21,586 bases of DNA, from positions 1 to 21,586 of IMG/VR virus record IMGVR_UViG_3300008055_000329. One strand, 5' to 3'. The translations under genes and the position numbers were made by a program. Shown here piece after piece: positions 588-6,061 of the stretch. How positions within the stretch are numbered: position 1 is the stretch's first letter; the number at the start of each line of letters is the position of its first letter. This DNA comes from a virus. The notes below the pieces were generated by a model, which saw only the letters and a program-made list of their open reading frames with translations, was not told the origin of the DNA and did not search any database.

Positions 588-758
588 ATGAGCAAAGGAT
601 CTAAACCAAGACCATTTACCAACAAAGAAATCTTTGATGATCACTTTGATCGTATCTTTCGTAAGAAGAAATTATTTCCTAAAGAAACTCCTAAAGAATA
701 TGAATTCGTATTACATCCTTCTACAGGCGAGGTTGAAAAGAAATTTAATGACGCTTAA
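588..758 (+). CDS. Small conserved phage protein, MSKGS type
   Basis: This 56-aa basic protein begins MSKGSKPRPF and continues with a FDDHFDRIF segment and a KKK run. That pattern recurs in short uncharacterised proteins of many tailed phages, recalled from general familiarity rather than searched. The function is unknown. An in-frame TTG at 567 would add seven residues, but the conserved MSKGS start favours the ATG at 588. No Shine-Dalgarno sequence precedes 588, and the sigma70 promoter at 552-580 places the transcript start at about this ATG, so the gene may be translated leaderlessly. It overlaps the next start by 11 bases. Confidence 0.75.
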   Translation: MSKGSKPRPFTNKEIFDDHFDRIFRKKKLFPKETPKEYEFVLHPSTGEVEKKFNDA

Positions 759-1002
759 AGAATGGATGTATTCCATGCGAAAACAGTTTGGTGATTATGA
801 GTTTAAGGTAACTTACCATAATGAAAAAGGTAAGGCCACGTTAGTGAGTCCAAAATGGCGCGATGATCCGCCAGGGTTAAAAGAAATAAAAGCATCAGAT
901 ATAGTTTTGCCTGATTTTTTAAGAGAGAAATCTAAACAGGCTAATGCTAAGAATCACAAAAAGTTAGTGAAGTCCATTACAAAATATAAGGAGACAGAAT
1001 GA
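748..1002 (+). CDS. Hypothetical protein, 84 aa
   Basis: Not recognised. The protein is lysine-rich with a predicted mixed fold. A Trp/Tyr-containing N-terminal part (MTLKEWMYSMRKQF, then a YEFKVTYHNEKGKATLV strand pair) is followed by a charged helical C-terminus. The frame stays open upstream to 634, but the ATG at 748 is preferred because it gives the usual short overlap with the preceding stop at 758; ATGs at 766 and 775 are alternatives. Its end overlaps the next start by four bases (ATGA), so it is part of the same operon. It has no signal peptide or membrane segment. Confidence 0.65.
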   Translation: MTLKEWMYSMRKQFGDYEFKVTYHNEKGKATLVSPKWRDDPPGLKEIKASDIVLPDFLREKSKQANAKNHKKLVKSITKYKETE

Positions 1003-1316
1003 TTCCCAAAAGAATTGCAATAGATGTTGATTCAGAAGCTATGAATGAAATTATACGTGAGTCATTAATTGAAACGTGTATAGATGAAGCAGAATCTTTA
1101 CTTGGAGATGATGATCTTTATTGCTATCTTATGACATTAAGTCATTACTCTACAACAGATGTAGTAAAAAGAGCATTAAAAGAGATTAATGATAGGATTA
1201 TGAGCGAAGAATTTAAGAATGATTTTGAAGATATTAAATATTGGAAAGATCATGTAGCTAGTCTGCAAGTAGTTACAAATAGATTTTTAATAGAATATTA
1301 TGGGAGCATAGAATGA
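999..1316 (+). CDS. Hypothetical acidic protein, 105 aa
   Basis: Not recognised. The protein is acidic and largely helical. It starts MIPKRIAIDVD and ends with a tyrosine-rich segment (FLIEYYGSIE). It contains an acidic GDDD stretch near residues 36-39 but no catalytic motif that I can assign. A good ribosome-binding site (AAGGAGA, about 988-994) sits at normal distance from the ATG at 999. It is joined to its neighbours by ATGA overlaps on both sides. The location among small accessory genes would fit a host-takeover or DNA-metabolism accessory role, but this is only context. Confidence 0.7.
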   Translation: MIPKRIAIDVDSEAMNEIIRESLIETCIDEAESLLGDDDLYCYLMTLSHYSTTDVVKRALKEINDRIMSEEFKNDFEDIKYWKDHVASLQVVTNRFLIEYYGSIE

Positions 1317-1489
1317 GTACAGAATTAAAACCATTTCTAGTTAGACTAACACCAGCAAGTGTTGATCTATTAGATAAAGCGCACAAAGAAACAAAGAAAG
1401 CTAAAGCTCTTATTATTAACGAAGCTATTGGAACACATCTTTCTAAAGAAGCTGACATCAATGCTCGTTTAAATAAGATTAGTCAATGA
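1313..1489 (+). CDS. Ribbon-helix-helix DNA-binding protein, 58 aa
   Basis: The protein reads as a minimal ribbon-helix-helix (CopG/Arc-like) domain. It has a short beta strand with alternating residues (PFLVRLTPAS, 7-16), a first helix (VDLLDKAHKETKK), a turn, and a second helix ending in the family-typical ALIINEAIGTHL (32-43). Such proteins bind DNA as dimers through the paired strands and often act as repressors. At 58 aa it is DNA-binding domain only. It overlaps the gene before it by ATGA and the rusA start by four bases, so it is co-transcribed with them. The assignment rests on the pattern of hydrophobic and polar residues. The target site is unknown. Confidence 0.65.
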   Translation: MSTELKPFLVRLTPASVDLLDKAHKETKKAKALIINEAIGTHLSKEADINARLNKISQ

Positions 1490-1839
1490 TATTAGAGTTG
1501 CCATACCCACCATCAGTTAATACTTACTGGAGAGCAAATGGAAAAAGAAGATTTATCTCAAAAGAAGGCGTGTTATTTAAGACAGCAGTTCAAGGCATCT
1601 GCTTTAGAGACAAAGTGGGATCTTTTGGCAATGCTCGCCTTTACGTTAATATTTATATCCATCCTCGTAGTCGGAGAGTATTTGATCTCGATAATTGCTT
1701 AAAGGCAATATTAGATGCGTTAATGGCAGCTGGTGTATATGATGACGATTCTCAAATAGATATGTTATCAATTGCTCGTAGTACGCCAAGACCAGGTGGG
1801 GCAGCGGTGGTAACGATTAGTGAATATAGTGGACAATAG
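1486..1839 (+). CDS. rusA: RusA-family Holliday junction resolvase
   Basis: This endonuclease cuts four-way DNA junctions to remove branches from replicating or recombining DNA. The 117-aa length matches RusA (about 120 aa). The N-terminal PPSVNTYWR (8-16) is the family signature. The active-site block RRVFDLDNCLKAILDAL (63-79) supplies Asp67, Asp69 and Lys73, and YDDD (85-88) supplies the further metal-binding acidic residues. It plays the part that T7 gives to endonuclease I, clearing branched concatemers before packaging, which fits its position a short distance upstream of the terminase genes. It starts inside the stop of the ribbon-helix-helix gene and its end is overlapped by the four-cysteine gene. 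Confidence 0.93.
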   Translation: MILELPYPPSVNTYWRANGKRRFISKEGVLFKTAVQGICFRDKVGSFGNARLYVNIYIHPRSRRVFDLDNCLKAILDALMAAGVYDDDSQIDMLSIARSTPRPGGAAVVTISEYSGQ

Positions 1840-2024: not shown

Positions 2025-2309
2025 ATGGCTGAGCAAAAAGAACGTAAACCTGGAACGGGTGTTGCATTTATTAACCAAAATAAAAAAGAGGACTGGCATG
2101 CGGACTTTACTGGAGAATTTGCTGATCTTAATGGTAATCTTTATTATCTTAATGTTAGCAAAAAAATTAGTGGGCATTCTGCTATTGAATATATTTCCGT
2201 ATCTTTAGGAAAACCAAAGGTAGCTAAAGGTTCTGCACCAGCACCTATGCCATCAGCTCAAACATCAGATGTAAATTTTGATGATCTTCCAGATGACTTA
2301 CCATTCTAA
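2025..2309 (+). CDS. Small SSB-like protein with acidic C-terminal tip
   Basis: A strong ribosome-binding site (AAGGAGA) precedes this 94-aa gene. Residues 9-65 are beta-rich and aromatic (GTGVAFINQNKKEDWHADFTG, then LYYLNVSKK and EYISVSLGK). This is a pattern I associate with a family of small phage proteins having a compact, possibly OB-like fold. A Pro/Ala/Ser linker (66-82) leads to the last residues, FDDLPDDLPF. These closely resemble the DDDIPF tip with which bacterial SSB recruits its partner enzymes. Binding of single-stranded DNA is inference. The domain is far shorter than a standard SSB OB fold. It lies between rusA and the terminase genes. Confidence 0.65.
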   Translation: MAEQKERKPGTGVAFINQNKKEDWHADFTGEFADLNGNLYYLNVSKKISGHSAIEYISVSLGKPKVAKGSAPAPMPSAQTSDVNFDDLPDDLPF

Positions 2310-2789
2310 ATGGCTGAAGAAGTCAAAAAGAAAAACCCCATCCCGTCTCTTGCTGGCTATGGTGGTGTCCGTAGCCTTCAAAAGAAACTTGAGCGCTCGA
2401 CTACGCTTCAACAGAATCGTGAAGCTGTTAGCTATACTCTTTTATGTATGGCGAATACAAAACTTACTGATATTATGGAATGGGACGAGCAAGGCAATAT
2501 CAAAGTTAAACCGAGTAATCAGATACCAGACCACGCCTTACAAGCTATTAAGAGTATTAAATCGAATACTAAAGTTGATAAGGAAGGAAATAGCTATACG
2601 ACTTTGGACATTGAGTTGTGGGATAAGGTAGGTGTATTAAGATTGCTTGCTAAGGCTTCTGGTTTGTTAGATAATCCAGAGGAATCCGATAAACCAAGCG
2701 TACTAGGTATTAACATACGCGCACCAGAGATTATAGACAATGACGAAGTCACACAAGAATCAGGATCAGATCAGCCAGCTGCTGAGTGA
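2310..2789 (+). CDS. terS: Terminase small subunit (probable)
   Basis: The small terminase recognises phage DNA and loads the large-subunit motor. The 159-aa protein sits a short distance upstream of the large terminase, the usual place. Its C-terminal half (LDIELWDKVGVLRLLAKASGLLDN, about 99-122) matches the closing region of Terminase_2-like small subunits, followed by an acidic disordered tail. The N-terminus is basic (AEEVKKKNPIPSL). The helix-turn-helix usually present is not obvious by eye, so the assignment rests on the C-terminal motif and synteny. The ATG directly abuts the stop of the SSB-like gene with no clear Shine-Dalgarno, suggesting translational coupling. Confidence 0.75.
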   Translation: MAEEVKKKNPIPSLAGYGGVRSLQKKLERSTTLQQNREAVSYTLLCMANTKLTDIMEWDEQGNIKVKPSNQIPDHALQAIKSIKSNTKVDKEGNSYTTLDIELWDKVGVLRLLAKASGLLDNPEESDKPSVLGINIRAPEIIDNDEVTQESGSDQPAAE

Positions 2790-3039
2790 AAGACAAATTA
2801 CTCATGGTAGCTATATGGCAAAAGCTGCTTTTATTCAAGATATAAAATCTTATATAAGAGATCTTCAAGAATGGAAGCAACTAGATCCAGATATGCAAGA
2901 GTCTTTAGATATGATTGTAACTAAAATGGCAAGAATACTTGTTGGTGATTCACATCATCATGATAGTTGGATTGACATTGCTGGTTATGCAATGTTAGTA
3001 GCAAATCGTTTACAACCAAAGGAGAAAGATAATGAGTGA
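2740..3039 (+). CDS. DUF6378-like protein
   Basis: This 99-aa all-helical protein shows LLSERQITHGSY (14-25), MQESLDMIVTKMARIL (52-67), and a GDSHHHDSWIDIAGYA block (69-84). This His/Asp/Glu-rich pattern matches the phage-borne DUF6378 family. The function is undetermined. The conserved acidic and histidine residues on helices recall MazG-like nucleotide pyrophosphohydrolases, but that is inference. The start at 2740 overlaps the end of terS by 50 bases. It is kept because a start at the internal ATG (2815) would remove the conserved THG motif. Confidence 0.75.
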   Translation: MTKSHKNQDQISQLLSERQITHGSYMAKAAFIQDIKSYIRDLQEWKQLDPDMQESLDMIVTKMARILVGDSHHHDSWIDIAGYAMLVANRLQPKEKDNE

Positions 3040-3190
3040 TTTAGATCAGCGCATTCAGAAGTTGCGAGATGCATATGCATTAAACAACATTTATCAAGCA
3101 GAGGCCTTACAAATTATTGATGCATTACAAGCACAGATCAATGTGCTTAATCAGTTATTGATGCTTGAGATTAAAGATATAGATGGCTAA
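3032..3190 (+). CDS. Small helical protein, 52 aa
   Basis: This short gene fills the gap before the large terminase. AAGGAGA at 3019-3025 lies at a good distance from the ATG at 3032, and the frame stays open for 52 codons to the stop at 3190. It overlaps the DUF6378-like gene by eight bases and the terminase start by eight bases (ATGGCTAA). The protein (MSDLDQRIQKL, then heptad-like ALQIIDALQAQINVLNQLL) is predicted to be one amphipathic helical hairpin or coiled coil. No function is assigned. Its place suggests a packaging accessory or translational coupling to terL. Confidence 0.7.
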   Translation: MSDLDQRIQKLRDAYALNNIYQAEALQIIDALQAQINVLNQLLMLEIKDIDG

Positions 3191-4736
3191 AATAAAAGAA
3201 GCATCTCAGAAAGCCATTCATGGCCCTGGGATTGATTTAGACTTTAGCACCGCACCAACAACATGGAACTTTCTACAGTCAGATGCATTCGTGCGCGGAC
3301 TGATGGGACCTGTTGGCTCTGGTAAATCCTATGCATGTGCCGCAGAGATTATGATGCGAGCAGTCAGACAAAAGCCATCGCCATTAGATGGGATTCGTTA
3401 TACACGATTTGTCATTGTTCGTAACTCATATCCTGAATTAAAGACAACAACAATTAAAACATGGCAAGATTTATTTCCAGAGAATACTTTTGGACCAATG
3501 TTATACACTCCCCCTATTACTCATCATATCCGTTTGCCATCTCGTGGTGAAGCAGCGGGTATTGATTGCGAAGTTATCTTTTTAGCACTAGATCAACCTA
3601 AAGACGTACGTAAATTACTATCACTTGAATTGACAGGAGCGTGGGTAAATGAAGCTCGTGAACTTCCTAAAGCAGTTATTGATGGACTTACACATCGTGT
3701 CGGTCGCTATCCTACACAACGTGATGGTGGACCTACCTGGCATGGTGTTTGGATGGATACTAATCCAATGGATGATGACCACTGGTGGTTTAAACTAGCG
3801 GAAAAAACAAAACTTACTGGCAAGTATGCTTGGGATTTTTTTAAACAACCTGGTGGTGTCATAGAAGTATCTCCTGGTGATTTGCCTGAGAACCCAGAAG
3901 CTAATGATCATATATTTTCTGGTGGCCGTTGGTGGAAGATAAATAACAAAGCTGAAAACGTAAGCAATCTACCAGCTGGTTATTACATGCAGATGCTTGG
4001 TGGTAAGAATCTTGATTGGATTAAATGTTATGCCGAAGGTAAATACACTTATGTTCAAGAAGGCAGACCCGTATGGCCAGAGTATGACGATCATGCTATG
4101 TCAGGCGAAGTAGATTATGATCCAGAGTTGCCATTACAGATTGGTCTTGACTTTGGTTTAACACCAGCAGCAGTTGTTGGTCAGCGTTTAAACAATGGAC
4201 GATGGATTATATTAGATGAGATTGTAACATTTGACATGGGACTTGAAAGATTTGGTCAGCAATTATTAGCTGAAGTAAATGCTCGTTATCCTAAAGCACA
4301 GATTATGTTATGGGGTGATCCAGCTGGTATGCAACGAGATGCTATTTATGAAGTCACTGCGTTTGATTATCTTAGAACATTAGGCCTACGCGCACAACCA
4401 ACACCATCTAATGACTTTAAAGTAAGACGTGAAGCAGCAGCTGCGCCTATGCAAAGACTTATTATGGGTAAACCAGGACTTATGATATCAACTAAATGCA
4501 AAATGATTCGTAAATCATTAGCTGGTGGGTATCATTTTAAGCGTGTTGCTGTAGGTGCTGGTCAAGAACGATTTAAAGATGCACCTAATAAAAACGAACA
4601 CTCTCACGTTGGCGATGCCTTTGGTTATCTATTGCTTGGTGGTGGTGAACACAAGCGTTTAACTAAAAGCCCATTGCAAGCGTCTACCCTTATAGCCCAA
4701 ACTATAGCGACAGGCGACTTTGACGTATTCAATTAA
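3183..4736 (+). CDS. terL: Terminase large subunit
   Basis: This is the ATP-driven DNA packaging motor with its headful/cutting nuclease. The 517-aa protein has all expected parts. The ATPase carries Walker A GPVGSGKS (42-49), a Walker B-like TGAWVNEAREL (151-161) with catalytic Glu157, and a coupling segment MDTNPMD (191-197). The RNase H-like nuclease carries Asp323 in IGLDFG, Asp379 in WGDPAG and Asp478 in HVGDAFGY. The length is typical of podoviral terminases. The use of Asn-Glu in place of Asp-Glu in Walker B is common in this branch. It overlaps the preceding small gene by eight bases and its end runs 17 bases into the acetyltransferase-like gene. Confidence 0.96.
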   Translation: MAKIKEASQKAIHGPGIDLDFSTAPTTWNFLQSDAFVRGLMGPVGSGKSYACAAEIMMRAVRQKPSPLDGIRYTRFVIVRNSYPELKTTTIKTWQDLFPENTFGPMLYTPPITHHIRLPSRGEAAGIDCEVIFLALDQPKDVRKLLSLELTGAWVNEARELPKAVIDGLTHRVGRYPTQRDGGPTWHGVWMDTNPMDDDHWWFKLAEKTKLTGKYAWDFFKQPGGVIEVSPGDLPENPEANDHIFSGGRWWKINNKAENVSNLPAGYYMQMLGGKNLDWIKCYAEGKYTYVQEGRPVWPEYDDHAMSGEVDYDPELPLQIGLDFGLTPAAVVGQRLNNGRWIILDEIVTFDMGLERFGQQLLAEVNARYPKAQIMLWGDPAGMQRDAIYEVTAFDYLRTLGLRAQPTPSNDFKVRREAAAAPMQRLIMGKPGLMISTKCKMIRKSLAGGYHFKRVAVGAGQERFKDAPNKNEHSHVGDAFGYLLLGGGEHKRLTKSPLQASTLIAQTIATGDFDVFN

Positions 4737-5214
4737 TCCAAAAGTATTAATGGAACTATTGCCACATGTACCTGGTGGCTACTTTCTTCCATTTCATTTA
4801 AGCCATCTTAACAATATGGAAGGCTTAGAGTCATATCGTAACTCAGCTATGGGTAACGAAGCCTTTGAAAAACAATTATTAGTTCAATCTATGAGTGGCC
4901 CAGCAGTTACTGCATTCCTTTATGGTAAACCAGTAGCTGTATTTGGATGCATGCTTATGTGGAAAGGTGTAGGCGAGGCATGGTCTATACTATCCGATAG
5001 CTCTAAGAGATATCCAATCGCGCTAATTCGTGGCGCTAGAGCATTTTTAGATAGCTGCACATCATCATATCACTTGCATAGATTACAAATAACTGTTAAA
5101 ACGTCTGATGCAGTAGCTATAAAGTTTGCCCATGCATTAAAGTTTATTCCTGAATGCAATATGGAAAAGTATAGCGCTGATCAAGAAGATTACACATTAT
5201 TTAGGAGAATATAA
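4720..5214 (+). CDS. Acetyltransferase-like protein, T7 gp13-like
   Basis: The 164-aa protein resembles the GNAT-like small internal virion protein of T7 (gp13). Shared features are a central beta segment ending in FLYGKPVAVFG (66-76), a region rich in short strands (HLHRLQITVKT, 118-128), and the closing AIKFAHALKFIPE...DYTLFRRI (133-164). That closing part parallels the 'RFLKTIGAVFHEEY...FQLF' region of gp13. Whether it acetylates anything is unknown, and the acetyl-CoA loop is not obvious. T7 gp13 sits next to the internal virion genes, whereas here the gene follows terL. The start is TTG 4720 (used here) or ATG 4750; neither has a strong ribosome-binding site. Confidence 0.7.
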   Translation: MTYSINPKVLMELLPHVPGGYFLPFHLSHLNNMEGLESYRNSAMGNEAFEKQLLVQSMSGPAVTAFLYGKPVAVFGCMLMWKGVGEAWSILSDSSKRYPIALIRGARAFLDSCTSSYHLHRLQITVKTSDAVAIKFAHALKFIPECNMEKYSADQEDYTLFRRI

Positions 5215-5215
5215 C

Positions 5216-5455
5216 ATGGGTGGATTAGTAGGCGGTGGTAGTAAACCAGATACATCAGCATTAGATGCACAAGTTAGAGAAAATGCAAGATTAAAAGCAC
5301 AACAAGAAACAGAGCAACGTAGATTAGCAGAAGAAGCTTCTGGCAAACGTAGAGCATTACGTGGTTCTAGTGGCAGATCATTGTTATCAGATGCTCGTTT
5401 AAATCCAGAAGCTGGCGTTGAAGATAAACTAGGCAGCGGCTCAACATTAGGTTAG
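5216..5455 (+). CDS. Small charged phage protein, Gly/Arg-rich
   Basis: This 79-aa protein starts MGGLVGGGSKP. It has a charged helical middle (ENARLKAQQETEQRRLAEEA, about 22-41), an Arg/Ser segment (KRRALRGSSGRSLL), and ends with a Gly-rich KLGSGSTLG. Proteins of this build (glycine start, KRR..GR..L middle, LG end) are frequent between terminase and portal genes of podoviruses, and no function is established. A good ribosome-binding site (AGGAGA) lies just upstream. The gene follows the previous stop by one base. Confidence 0.75.
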   Translation: MGGLVGGGSKPDTSALDAQVRENARLKAQQETEQRRLAEEASGKRRALRGSSGRSLLSDARLNPEAGVEDKLGSGSTLG

Positions 5456-5464
5456 GAATATAAA

Positions 5465-5632
5465 ATGAAACAAGACAAAATGCAAGCTAAGGTTAAAAAA
5501 GTTATGCGTGGGTATAAGTCTAAAGCTTCTGGCCCTAGCAAAGGCGGTAAGGTAAGCCCTGAGTTTGTTAAAGAAATGGAAAAGGCATACCCAAAAGGCG
5601 CTACAGTAACTCCAATGAAAAAAGGATATTAA
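5465..5632 (+). CDS. Small lysine-rich protein, 55 aa
   Basis: The ATG at 5465 follows TTAGGA at suitable spacing and opens a 55-aa frame ending at 5632. The protein is strongly basic (MKQDKMQAKVKKVMRGYKSK) with a C-terminal segment SPEFVKEMEKAYPKGATV. It is not recognised beyond a general resemblance to small basic proteins preceding phage portal genes. The charge suggests contact with DNA or an acidic partner, but this is inference. The next gene starts after one base. Confidence 0.7.
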   Translation: MKQDKMQAKVKKVMRGYKSKASGPSKGGKVSPEFVKEMEKAYPKGATVTPMKKGY

Positions 5633-5633
5633 T

Positions 5634-5789
5634 ATGAAAGCTGGACTTTATGCCAATATTCATAAAAAAAGAGAACGTATATCTGAAGGCTCTAAAGAAA
5701 AGATGCGCAAGCCTGGTTCTCCTGGCGCTCCTACAGATGCTGCATTTATTAAAGCTGCTAAAACAGCAATGAAGCCTAAGAAAAAATAA
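5634..5789 (+). CDS. Small basic phage protein, MKAGLYANI type
   Basis: This 51-aa protein begins MKAGLYANIHKKRERI and contains KMRKPGSPGAPTDAAFIKAAKTA. I associate this conserved pattern with very short proteins near the portal gene in many marine and freshwater podoviruses; no database was consulted. The function is unknown. AAAGGAT provides a ribosome-binding site at proper spacing. The last base of its stop codon is the first base of the next start. It is strongly basic with a lysine-rich end. Confidence 0.75.
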   Translation: MKAGLYANIHKKRERISEGSKEKMRKPGSPGAPTDAAFIKAAKTAMKPKKK

Positions 5790-6061
5790 TGACATTAAAG
5801 AAACATCAAAATCCTAAAGGCGGATTAAATGAAGCTGGAAGAAAGCACTTTGAAAGTAAAGAAGGTGGCAACTTACAATCTCCAGTCAAGACTGGTACAA
5901 ATCCTAGGCGCGTGTCTTTTGCTGCTCGTTTTGGTGGAATGTCTGGCCCATTAACTGATGAAAAGGGTAGGCCAACAAGATTAAAGTTGGCATTAAAAGC
6001 ATGGGGATTTGGCAGTAAAGAAGCAGCAAGAAATTTTGCAAATAAAAATAAGAAAGATTAA
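5789..6061 (+). CDS. DUF6321-like small basic protein
   Basis: The 90-aa protein has the ordered motifs NPKGGLNEAGRKHF (8-21), GGNLQSPVKTG (26-36), RRVSFAARFGGMSGPLTDEKG (40-60), RPTRLKLALKAWGF (61-74) and an Ala/Lys end. This order matches the phage family I know as DUF6321, which is small, basic and found with packaging and capsid genes. No biochemical role is established. A DNA- or portal-associated function would fit its charge and position. The start overlaps the previous stop by one base and only a weak Shine-Dalgarno is seen, implying coupled translation. Confidence 0.75.
   Translation: MTLKKHQNPKGGLNEAGRKHFESKEGGNLQSPVKTGTNPRRVSFAARFGGMSGPLTDEKGRPTRLKLALKAWGFGSKEAARNFANKNKKD

Follow-up and report, generated by a model that had tools for sequence, protein, structure and literature searches.

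A short gene next to the terminase genes of a MEP301-like phage probably encodes a small single-stranded DNA-binding protein whose acidic tip recruits a phage annealase

The stretch of viral DNA analysed here, called the window below, is 21,586 bases long and is evidently incomplete, as the related records have lengths of 28-37 kb. On its plus strand an ATG opens a reading frame (2025-2309) that encodes 94 residues plus stop and whose product ends in ...VNFDDLPDDLPF. A ribosome-binding site read from the sequence, AAGGAG (2013-2018, +), lies 6 bases 5' of this ATG, and the stop codon TAA directly abuts, with zero gap, the ATG at 2310 of the terminase small subunit gene (2310-2789, +; PF03592 E 1.2e-5 and 26.3 bits, the cut-off being 26.1). 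Two genes upstream a RusA-type Holliday-junction resolvase is encoded (1486-1839, +; PF05866 E 3.7e-12; phrog_34 E 1.3e-35). The gene between rusA and the short frame (1820-2014, +) encodes 64 residues with two CxxC pairs in the sequence; the product appears zinc-ribbon-like by eye, had no PHROG match and only a sub-threshold match in Pfam, and a similar gene adjoins the homologous gene in two related loci, L004 and L046. A 99-residue DUF6378 protein (2740-3039; PF19905 E 2.3e-6) is also encoded adjoining the terminase genes. The terminase large subunit (3183-4736, +) is 84.7% identical to that of phage MEP301, the second-closest isolate among the matches listed reaching 43.1%, and because of this identity we assign the window to a MEP301-like phage, whose host is probably a methylotroph of the order Methylophilales. 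A prophage search of genome contigs for the host gave one relative in 28 candidate stretches, on a 5.9-kb contig of a Chloroflexi bin, which is uninformative on the host. Three observations rule out that 2025-2309 is a chance ORF or a reading-frame artefact: it has a ribosome-binding site, the next gene abuts it, and its protein is conserved while the synonymous codings are many.

The protein can be divided into three parts. Residues 8-66 (2046-2222, +) form a conserved body, delimited from the AlphaFold model, from conservation and from a profile match of the body only; the model places four beta strands in it, at residues 12-16, 28-33, 39-48 and 55-66. Residues 67-85 (2223-2279, +) are a variable linker containing Ala, Pro and Ser, with low pLDDT and high column entropy. 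Residues 86-94 (2280-2306, +) are the acidic tip DDLPDDLPF, of the type found in bacterial SSB and recognised from its sequence and conservation. The original prediction had started from this SSB-like tip, and the tip is real: DDLPDDLPF was confirmed as the end of the 94-residue ORF, the only one to end in F among the 94 closed ORFs of at least 40 residues in the window.

A tip that varied among homologues had been named as evidence against the prediction, and the opposite was found. In all scans together, the tip, defined by a pattern in which LF is also allowed, closes 147 of 151 distinct relatives; the 151 proteins come from 228 loci after same-contig duplicates had been collapsed by sequence and the open-ended L222 left uncounted. 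Because some later scans behind this count relied on peptides close to the tip, a cleaner estimate comes from a set of 85 loci drawn almost wholly by the body, in which 60 of 61 distinct proteins have the tip at their end: 80 of these loci were found with body-only patterns (the best 80 of 397 relatives), and five were added. The 61st protein of that set has one extra residue after the tip. The four exceptions among the 151 are L072 (one residue after the F), L120 (an early stop), L133 (DAPF) and L166 (EPPF). The L072 protein (3808-4104) ends in DLPFQ, so that the terminal F is no longer a free C-terminus, and it is either a natural tip mutant or a sequencing error.

As a control, the pattern [DE][DENS]?[LIM][PL]F was searched at the ends of 4368 ORFs of at least 40 residues, taken from both strands of the gathered loci, mostly non-genes and distinct in their last 40 residues. 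It ended 77 of them; 76 are listed members of the family, many of them near-identical, and the 77th (L046, 1372-1632, minus strand) is a member by sequence. Mean column entropy is 0.61 bits over the last five residues, 1.29 over the body and 2.34 over the linker, so that the part just before the tip is the least conserved of all. At the DNA level the last five codons take 91 different forms, of which 89 end in F and 86 have P ahead of it; it is therefore the protein that is conserved and not the DNA. These patterns of conservation indicate that the tip is under selection and not a product of chance.

Searched against PHROGs, the window protein matched phrog_18154 at E 0.0015 and phrog_7364 at E 0.0071, values that are weak for a single sequence. 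The label of phrog_18154 is 'single strand DNA binding protein', and 8 of 11 aligned members of the family matched it at E <= 0.01, the best being an Acinetobacter member at 2.3e-33. A comparison of profiles linked the window's clade more firmly to the rest of the family. With hhalign, the clade (19 sequences) aligned to a profile of 11 more distant members (A3), six of them annotated as SSB, at 99.5% probability and E 1.9e-22, with none of 100 column shuffles coming near. With linker and tip removed, the bodies still matched at 99.1% and E 6e-19, and none of 100 column shuffles scored as high; the family link is therefore independent of the tip. Two of the other alignments were restricted: A2 left out L049, L061, L072, L120 and the phage-collection sequences, and A5 left out L014, L015, L134, L135, L072, L120, L049, L061 and near-duplicates, with the window replacing the identical L001.

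General family libraries returned little. The window protein matched no Pfam family at E <= 1, PF00436 included, and had no match in NCBIfam, and with the 11 members of alignment A1 the Pfam matches did not rise above chance level (best E 0.13). Neither the window protein nor its clade matched a solved structure by sequence. With the wider A3 profile, two bacterial SSBs were matched in their tails, at E 0.033 and 0.082; we rejected these matches as evidence on the body, as they cover tails only and myosin chains follow at E 0.34. Taken together, the sequence relationships identify 2025-2309 as a real conserved gene and a new member of an already labelled phage SSB family, a label that comes from annotation in the family members. 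A 'minimal ssDNA binder', one of the two roles originally proposed, fits this result, as the body is by its sequence that of a phage family whose annotation is ssDNA binding.

Among the annotated homologues the closest is gp50 (ORF50) of MEP301, labelled 'ssDNA binding protein', with 37.5% identity over 94 of 94 residues. The two proteins share homology over their full length, the gene order rusA - ssb - terS and the class of tip (DDLPF in MEP301). They differ in that the extra CxxC gene is found only in the window and in that the SSB is far more diverged than the terminase: the identity of the SSBs is only 37.5%, against 84.7% for the terminase large subunit. By this comparison, the SSB of the window would either evolve fast or have been exchanged. 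The MEP301 paper (PMC8024684, in excerpt) names gp50 an SSB on the basis of annotation and compares it with the Acinetobacter phages SH-Ab and DMU1. Our literature searches (phage SSBs with a tip or an OB fold, their structures, Enc34, and small, minimal or short SSBs) found the small family in that paper alone. The short SSBs of phrog_18154 and phrog_7364, from Acinetobacter phage SH-Ab 15497, C72C1 and Escherichia phage phiEcoM-GJ1, have a homologous body, a variable linker and the same tip, but some have a longer linker (phiEcoM-GJ1, 126 residues in total) or polymerase neighbours. In locus L046 (IMGVR_UViG_3300020044_002077) the module CxxC gene - ssb - terS occurs twice in divergent orientation, at 643-1835 (-) and 2644-5873 (+). 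The bodies of its two SSBs are very different and their tips are of the same class; the record is either a chimeric assembly or holds two alleles of one module.

The fold of the body was modelled with AlphaFold for the window protein (80 sequences) and for a family representative (L167). Both models show four strands and both are of moderate confidence, with mean pLDDT values of 68.8 and 72.1, respectively; in the window protein pLDDT falls below 50 at residues 67-82. With neither model did Foldseek find a PDB match at E <= 0.001, OB folds included. The first match of the window model was Borrelia Pur-alpha at E 0.64; for the family model, SH2 domains came on top and PC4 or MoSub1 chains made up 7 of the best 50 rows. 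The ssDNA-binding proteins PUR, PC4/Sub1 and Whirly belong to one fold class. With VIA-align, entries of the PUR/PC4/Whirly type were 9 of the 50 listed for the family model (Z 2.5-3.6), and for the window model 2 of the 50 listed were of PUR/PC4 type, both from Borrelia (Z 3.7 and 3.0). These scores are low and unrelated proteins equal them, ELMO1 reaching Z 4.2 with both models. No bacterial SSB was noticed by name among the best 50 of 443 and the best 50 of 413 Foldseek rows for the two models; a single chain of the Enc34 SSB stood at rank 50 (E 2.3), and this protein is a T7-type SSB of another family (PMC5686142, in excerpt). A library of viral structures gave 12 matches at E <= 0.001, all of them uncharacterised or unnamed phage proteins; an SSB of a Vibrio phage ranked 20th (E 0.12). 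From the models, the body may not be an OB fold. Should the weak resemblance to PC4 and PUR be true, the docking tail of SSB would occur in phages on two unrelated folds.

The bacterial SSB of the E. coli type (PF00436) has the same class of tip, ending in I/L-P-F after acidic residues. It differs from the window protein in its length, about 178 residues (1eqq_A) against 94, and in its domain, the window protein having no PF00436 match.

The genes that accompany the family were counted in two sets of related records. The first set of 20 comprises MEP301 and 19 of 22 IMG/VR records with a length of 28 kb or more, SH-Ab 15497 being added for the PF00436 search (21 records); the second set of 15 comprises the remaining three of the 22 (L099, L132 and L133) and, without L181 and L225, 12 of 14 other records longer than 32 kb. 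These records are akin to each other, fall into few clades and include many fragments, so that the counts are not independent and absences are weak. ERF was found in 11 of 20 and 12 of 15 records of the two sets, RecT in 9 of 20 (three of the nine below the Pfam cut-off) and 1 of 15. Exactly one of these annealases is present in 33 of the 35 records and both in none; neither was matched in the remaining two (G026 and G033). A YqaJ exonuclease and RusA, both counted over the first set, are each present in 19 of 20 records. Whole ORFs read in three records confirmed RecT in G013, RecT and YqaJ in G010, and ERF and YqaJ in G001.

Canonical SSB (PF00436) was matched in none of the 21 and none of the 15 records, that is, in 0 of 36 in all, many of them fragments; the same search was positive in 10 of 14 control genomes. 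This result bears on the other role originally proposed, a decoy. In the form considered here, a decoy would be a stand-alone carrier of the tip that titrates host SSB partners, for example RecQ, RecO and ExoI, from or onto phage DNA without coating ssDNA. A short body with an excellent tip is what such a decoy would look like. Nevertheless, a decoy needs no conserved body (1.29 bits, against 2.34 in the linker) with homology to annotated phage SSBs, and no canonical SSB was matched elsewhere in the related records; for both reasons we consider the decoy extremely unlikely. The conserved body, the 0 of 36 records with canonical SSB and the link to an annealase in 33 of 35 argue instead for a working SSB.

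The place of the gene with respect to the annealase gene depends on the group. In all 12 ERF records of the second set the ssb lies on the strand of the ERF match and starts 35-857 bases past its end. It likewise follows a Sak-like annealing protein gene in C72C1 and erf in the podovirus ctfne034, and in Microcystis phage Mae-JY35 the homologue, annotated as hypothetical, comes after an 'essential recombination function protein'. ERF does not adjoin ssb in the window's own clade; kilobases separate the two, and in the L025 record their matches are about 7 kb from each other on opposite strands. Members of this clade have ssb between rusA and the gene for the terminase small subunit, stop and start abutting in the window, and RusA is present in nearly every record counted. 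From this position one could propose an accessory of packaging or junction processing, which would act with RusA and terminase and shield the ssDNA of branched substrates before packaging. We regard such a role as very unlikely, as the position is not general: other members adjoin ERF/Sak or polymerase genes and not terminase. In phages of Acinetobacter, Klebsiella, Burkholderia and Stenotrophomonas the homologue is near DNA polymerase genes, and an annealase is therefore not its sole context. The gene neighbourhoods describe a general ssDNA protein that is most often recorded here together with an annealase.

Two further observations concern the annealases. In G001-G019 and MEP301, tips end in LPF or LLF in 8 of 11 ERF records and in IPF in 9 of 9 RecT records, so that position -3 of the tip is L in 8/11 against 0/9 (Fisher p 0.0014); we gave this link between tip letter and annealase no weight, since the records are essentially two clades. 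In MEP301 (the L014 record) the ERF match near 2654-3055 crosses one stop codon; its open frame has 146 residues, as compared to 218-250 in the other ten ERF records of the first set. The MEP301 annealase may be shortened or broken, or the record may be in error.

An SSB of this kind could also have the host as its main partner. A protein that coats ssDNA might use the tip mainly to bring host enzymes of replication and repair, SSB-interacting proteins such as PriA, RecO, RecQ and ExoI, to the phage DNA because the phage has no polymerase of its own. In agreement with this, family A DNA polymerase (PF00476) was matched in none of the 20 and none of the 15 records, 0 of 35 in all, a search that covers family A only and a set that does not include SH-Ab 15497, in which a polymerase is annotated. 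The MEP301 authors likewise found no DNA polymerase, according to the excerpts of their paper (PMC8024684), and the tip is very similar to DDDIPF, with which E. coli SSB ends (quoted in PMC5928155). The adjoining polymerase genes of some homologues are also compatible with host recruitment. A host is expected to own an SSB with this kind of tip. Recruitment alone would thus leave a second SSB unexplained, as the host SSB should already carry such a tip; moreover, the co-occurrence with one annealase (33/35) is specific, and the absence of a polymerase holds for family A. On these grounds we consider recruitment of host enzymes as the main task of the tip to be unlikely.

We favour a model in which the gene makes the phage's own small SSB, with a tip that recruits the phage annealase (ERF or RecT) and probably host partners too, and we consider this model probable. 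The likeliest partner of the tip is the phage annealase. The body, of about 60 residues in beta strands, would bind ssDNA, and a short variable linker would join it to the DDLPDDLPF tip. During infection a YqaJ-family exonuclease would resect the ends of the phage DNA and the small SSB would cover the exposed strand; the tip would then bring in the annealase, ERF in the window's group and RecT in the sister group, which would serve annealing, concatemer formation and repair, while RusA would resolve junctions. The tip probably engages host SSB partners as well, because it is close to the bacterial SSB tip. The window is a 21.6-kb fragment in which neither ERF nor YqaJ is apparent, and its own phage would be expected to carry both. 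We infer the binding of ssDNA and the contacts of the tip with annealase and host enzymes, and the mechanism is modelled by analogy on the SSB-Sak4 pair of phage HK620.

In HK620 the SSB gene adjoins the annealase gene sak4 and the SSB stimulates Sak4; the last six residues of the SSB, NDYPPF, are needed for Sak4 to bind SSB-covered ssDNA and for the stimulation (PMC5928155, in excerpt). An acidic tip that recruits and stimulates the cognate annealase is the working mode proposed for the window protein. The HK620 SSB (DUF669) differs in being a protein of 21.3 kDa as a monomer, probably a tetramer, and of another Pfam family, unlike the window protein, which is without a Pfam match at E <= 1; its partner is Sak4, whereas the partner proposed here is ERF or RecT. 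Similarly, SSB and Sak or Sak4 cooperate in staphylococcal phages, where both are required for replication, and phage phi11 produces less concatemeric DNA when sak4 or ssb is mutated (excerpts of PMC5499656).

If this interpretation is correct, a suspicious short ORF becomes a predicted phage SSB with a named likely partner, the phage annealase. Annealases depend on the SSB tip that they encounter (PMC10711431 and PMC5928155, both in excerpt), and for this reason matched SSB-annealase pairs are potentially useful: pairs of SSB and ERF or RecT from uncultured phages could serve recombineering in bacteria where the existing annealases fail. The points most likely to surprise a specialist are the proposed pairing with an annealase, the possible non-OB fold and a putative link to DUF736 (PF05284).

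DUF736 was not matched by the window protein in Pfam. Five divergent family members (L133, L135, L164, L165 and L166) and two plasmid proteins (L249 and L250) scored 13 to 16 bits, below the cut-off of 22.1, and the other family members scanned gave no PF05284 match. A plasmid search with the C72C1 protein gave 51 records, DUF736 genes among them. When seven DUF736 proteins (A6) were aligned by hhalign to the A3 body, the match was of 94.1% and E 1.3e-7 over about 48 columns, and none of 100 column shuffles scored as high; the window's clade alone reached 24.3%, yet this was above all 100 shuffles. The relation would be a distant one of the body; the tip is absent from all seven aligned DUF736 proteins, unlike the window protein. 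No solved structure matched DUF736 by sequence. Used as a query, DUF736 matched 1070 plasmid records, 744 of them typed conjugative, and DUF736 genes are reported to be present on every studied Mesorhizobium ICE or plasmid that has one kind of conjugation cluster (PMC8627217, in excerpt).

As a lead from these profile matches, DUF736 of conjugative plasmids and ICEs may be distantly related to the body of the phage SSBs. If this link is true, a conserved gene of conjugative plasmids and ICEs would have a first function that can be tested. A wider picture can be drawn, in which widespread phage SSBs combine a non-OB, PC4/PUR-like body of four strands with an independently acquired tip of the bacterial SSB type and are tied to ERF or RecT, and in which DUF736 is their tip-less cousin and hence an ssDNA-binding protein of conjugation; we find this picture, as a whole, doubtful. 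Five plasmids of Paraburkholderia and Caballeronia (281-447 kb) encode a protein of 165-166 residues whose C-terminal half is the body of the phage SSB family. The two that were read, L249 3770-4267 and L250 3770-4270, have the tips DEDIPF and DDEIPF. These two proteins, from Caballeronia and Paraburkholderia plasmids, are labelled DUF736 or hypothetical, and by eye their N-terminal half appears to be a diverged second copy.
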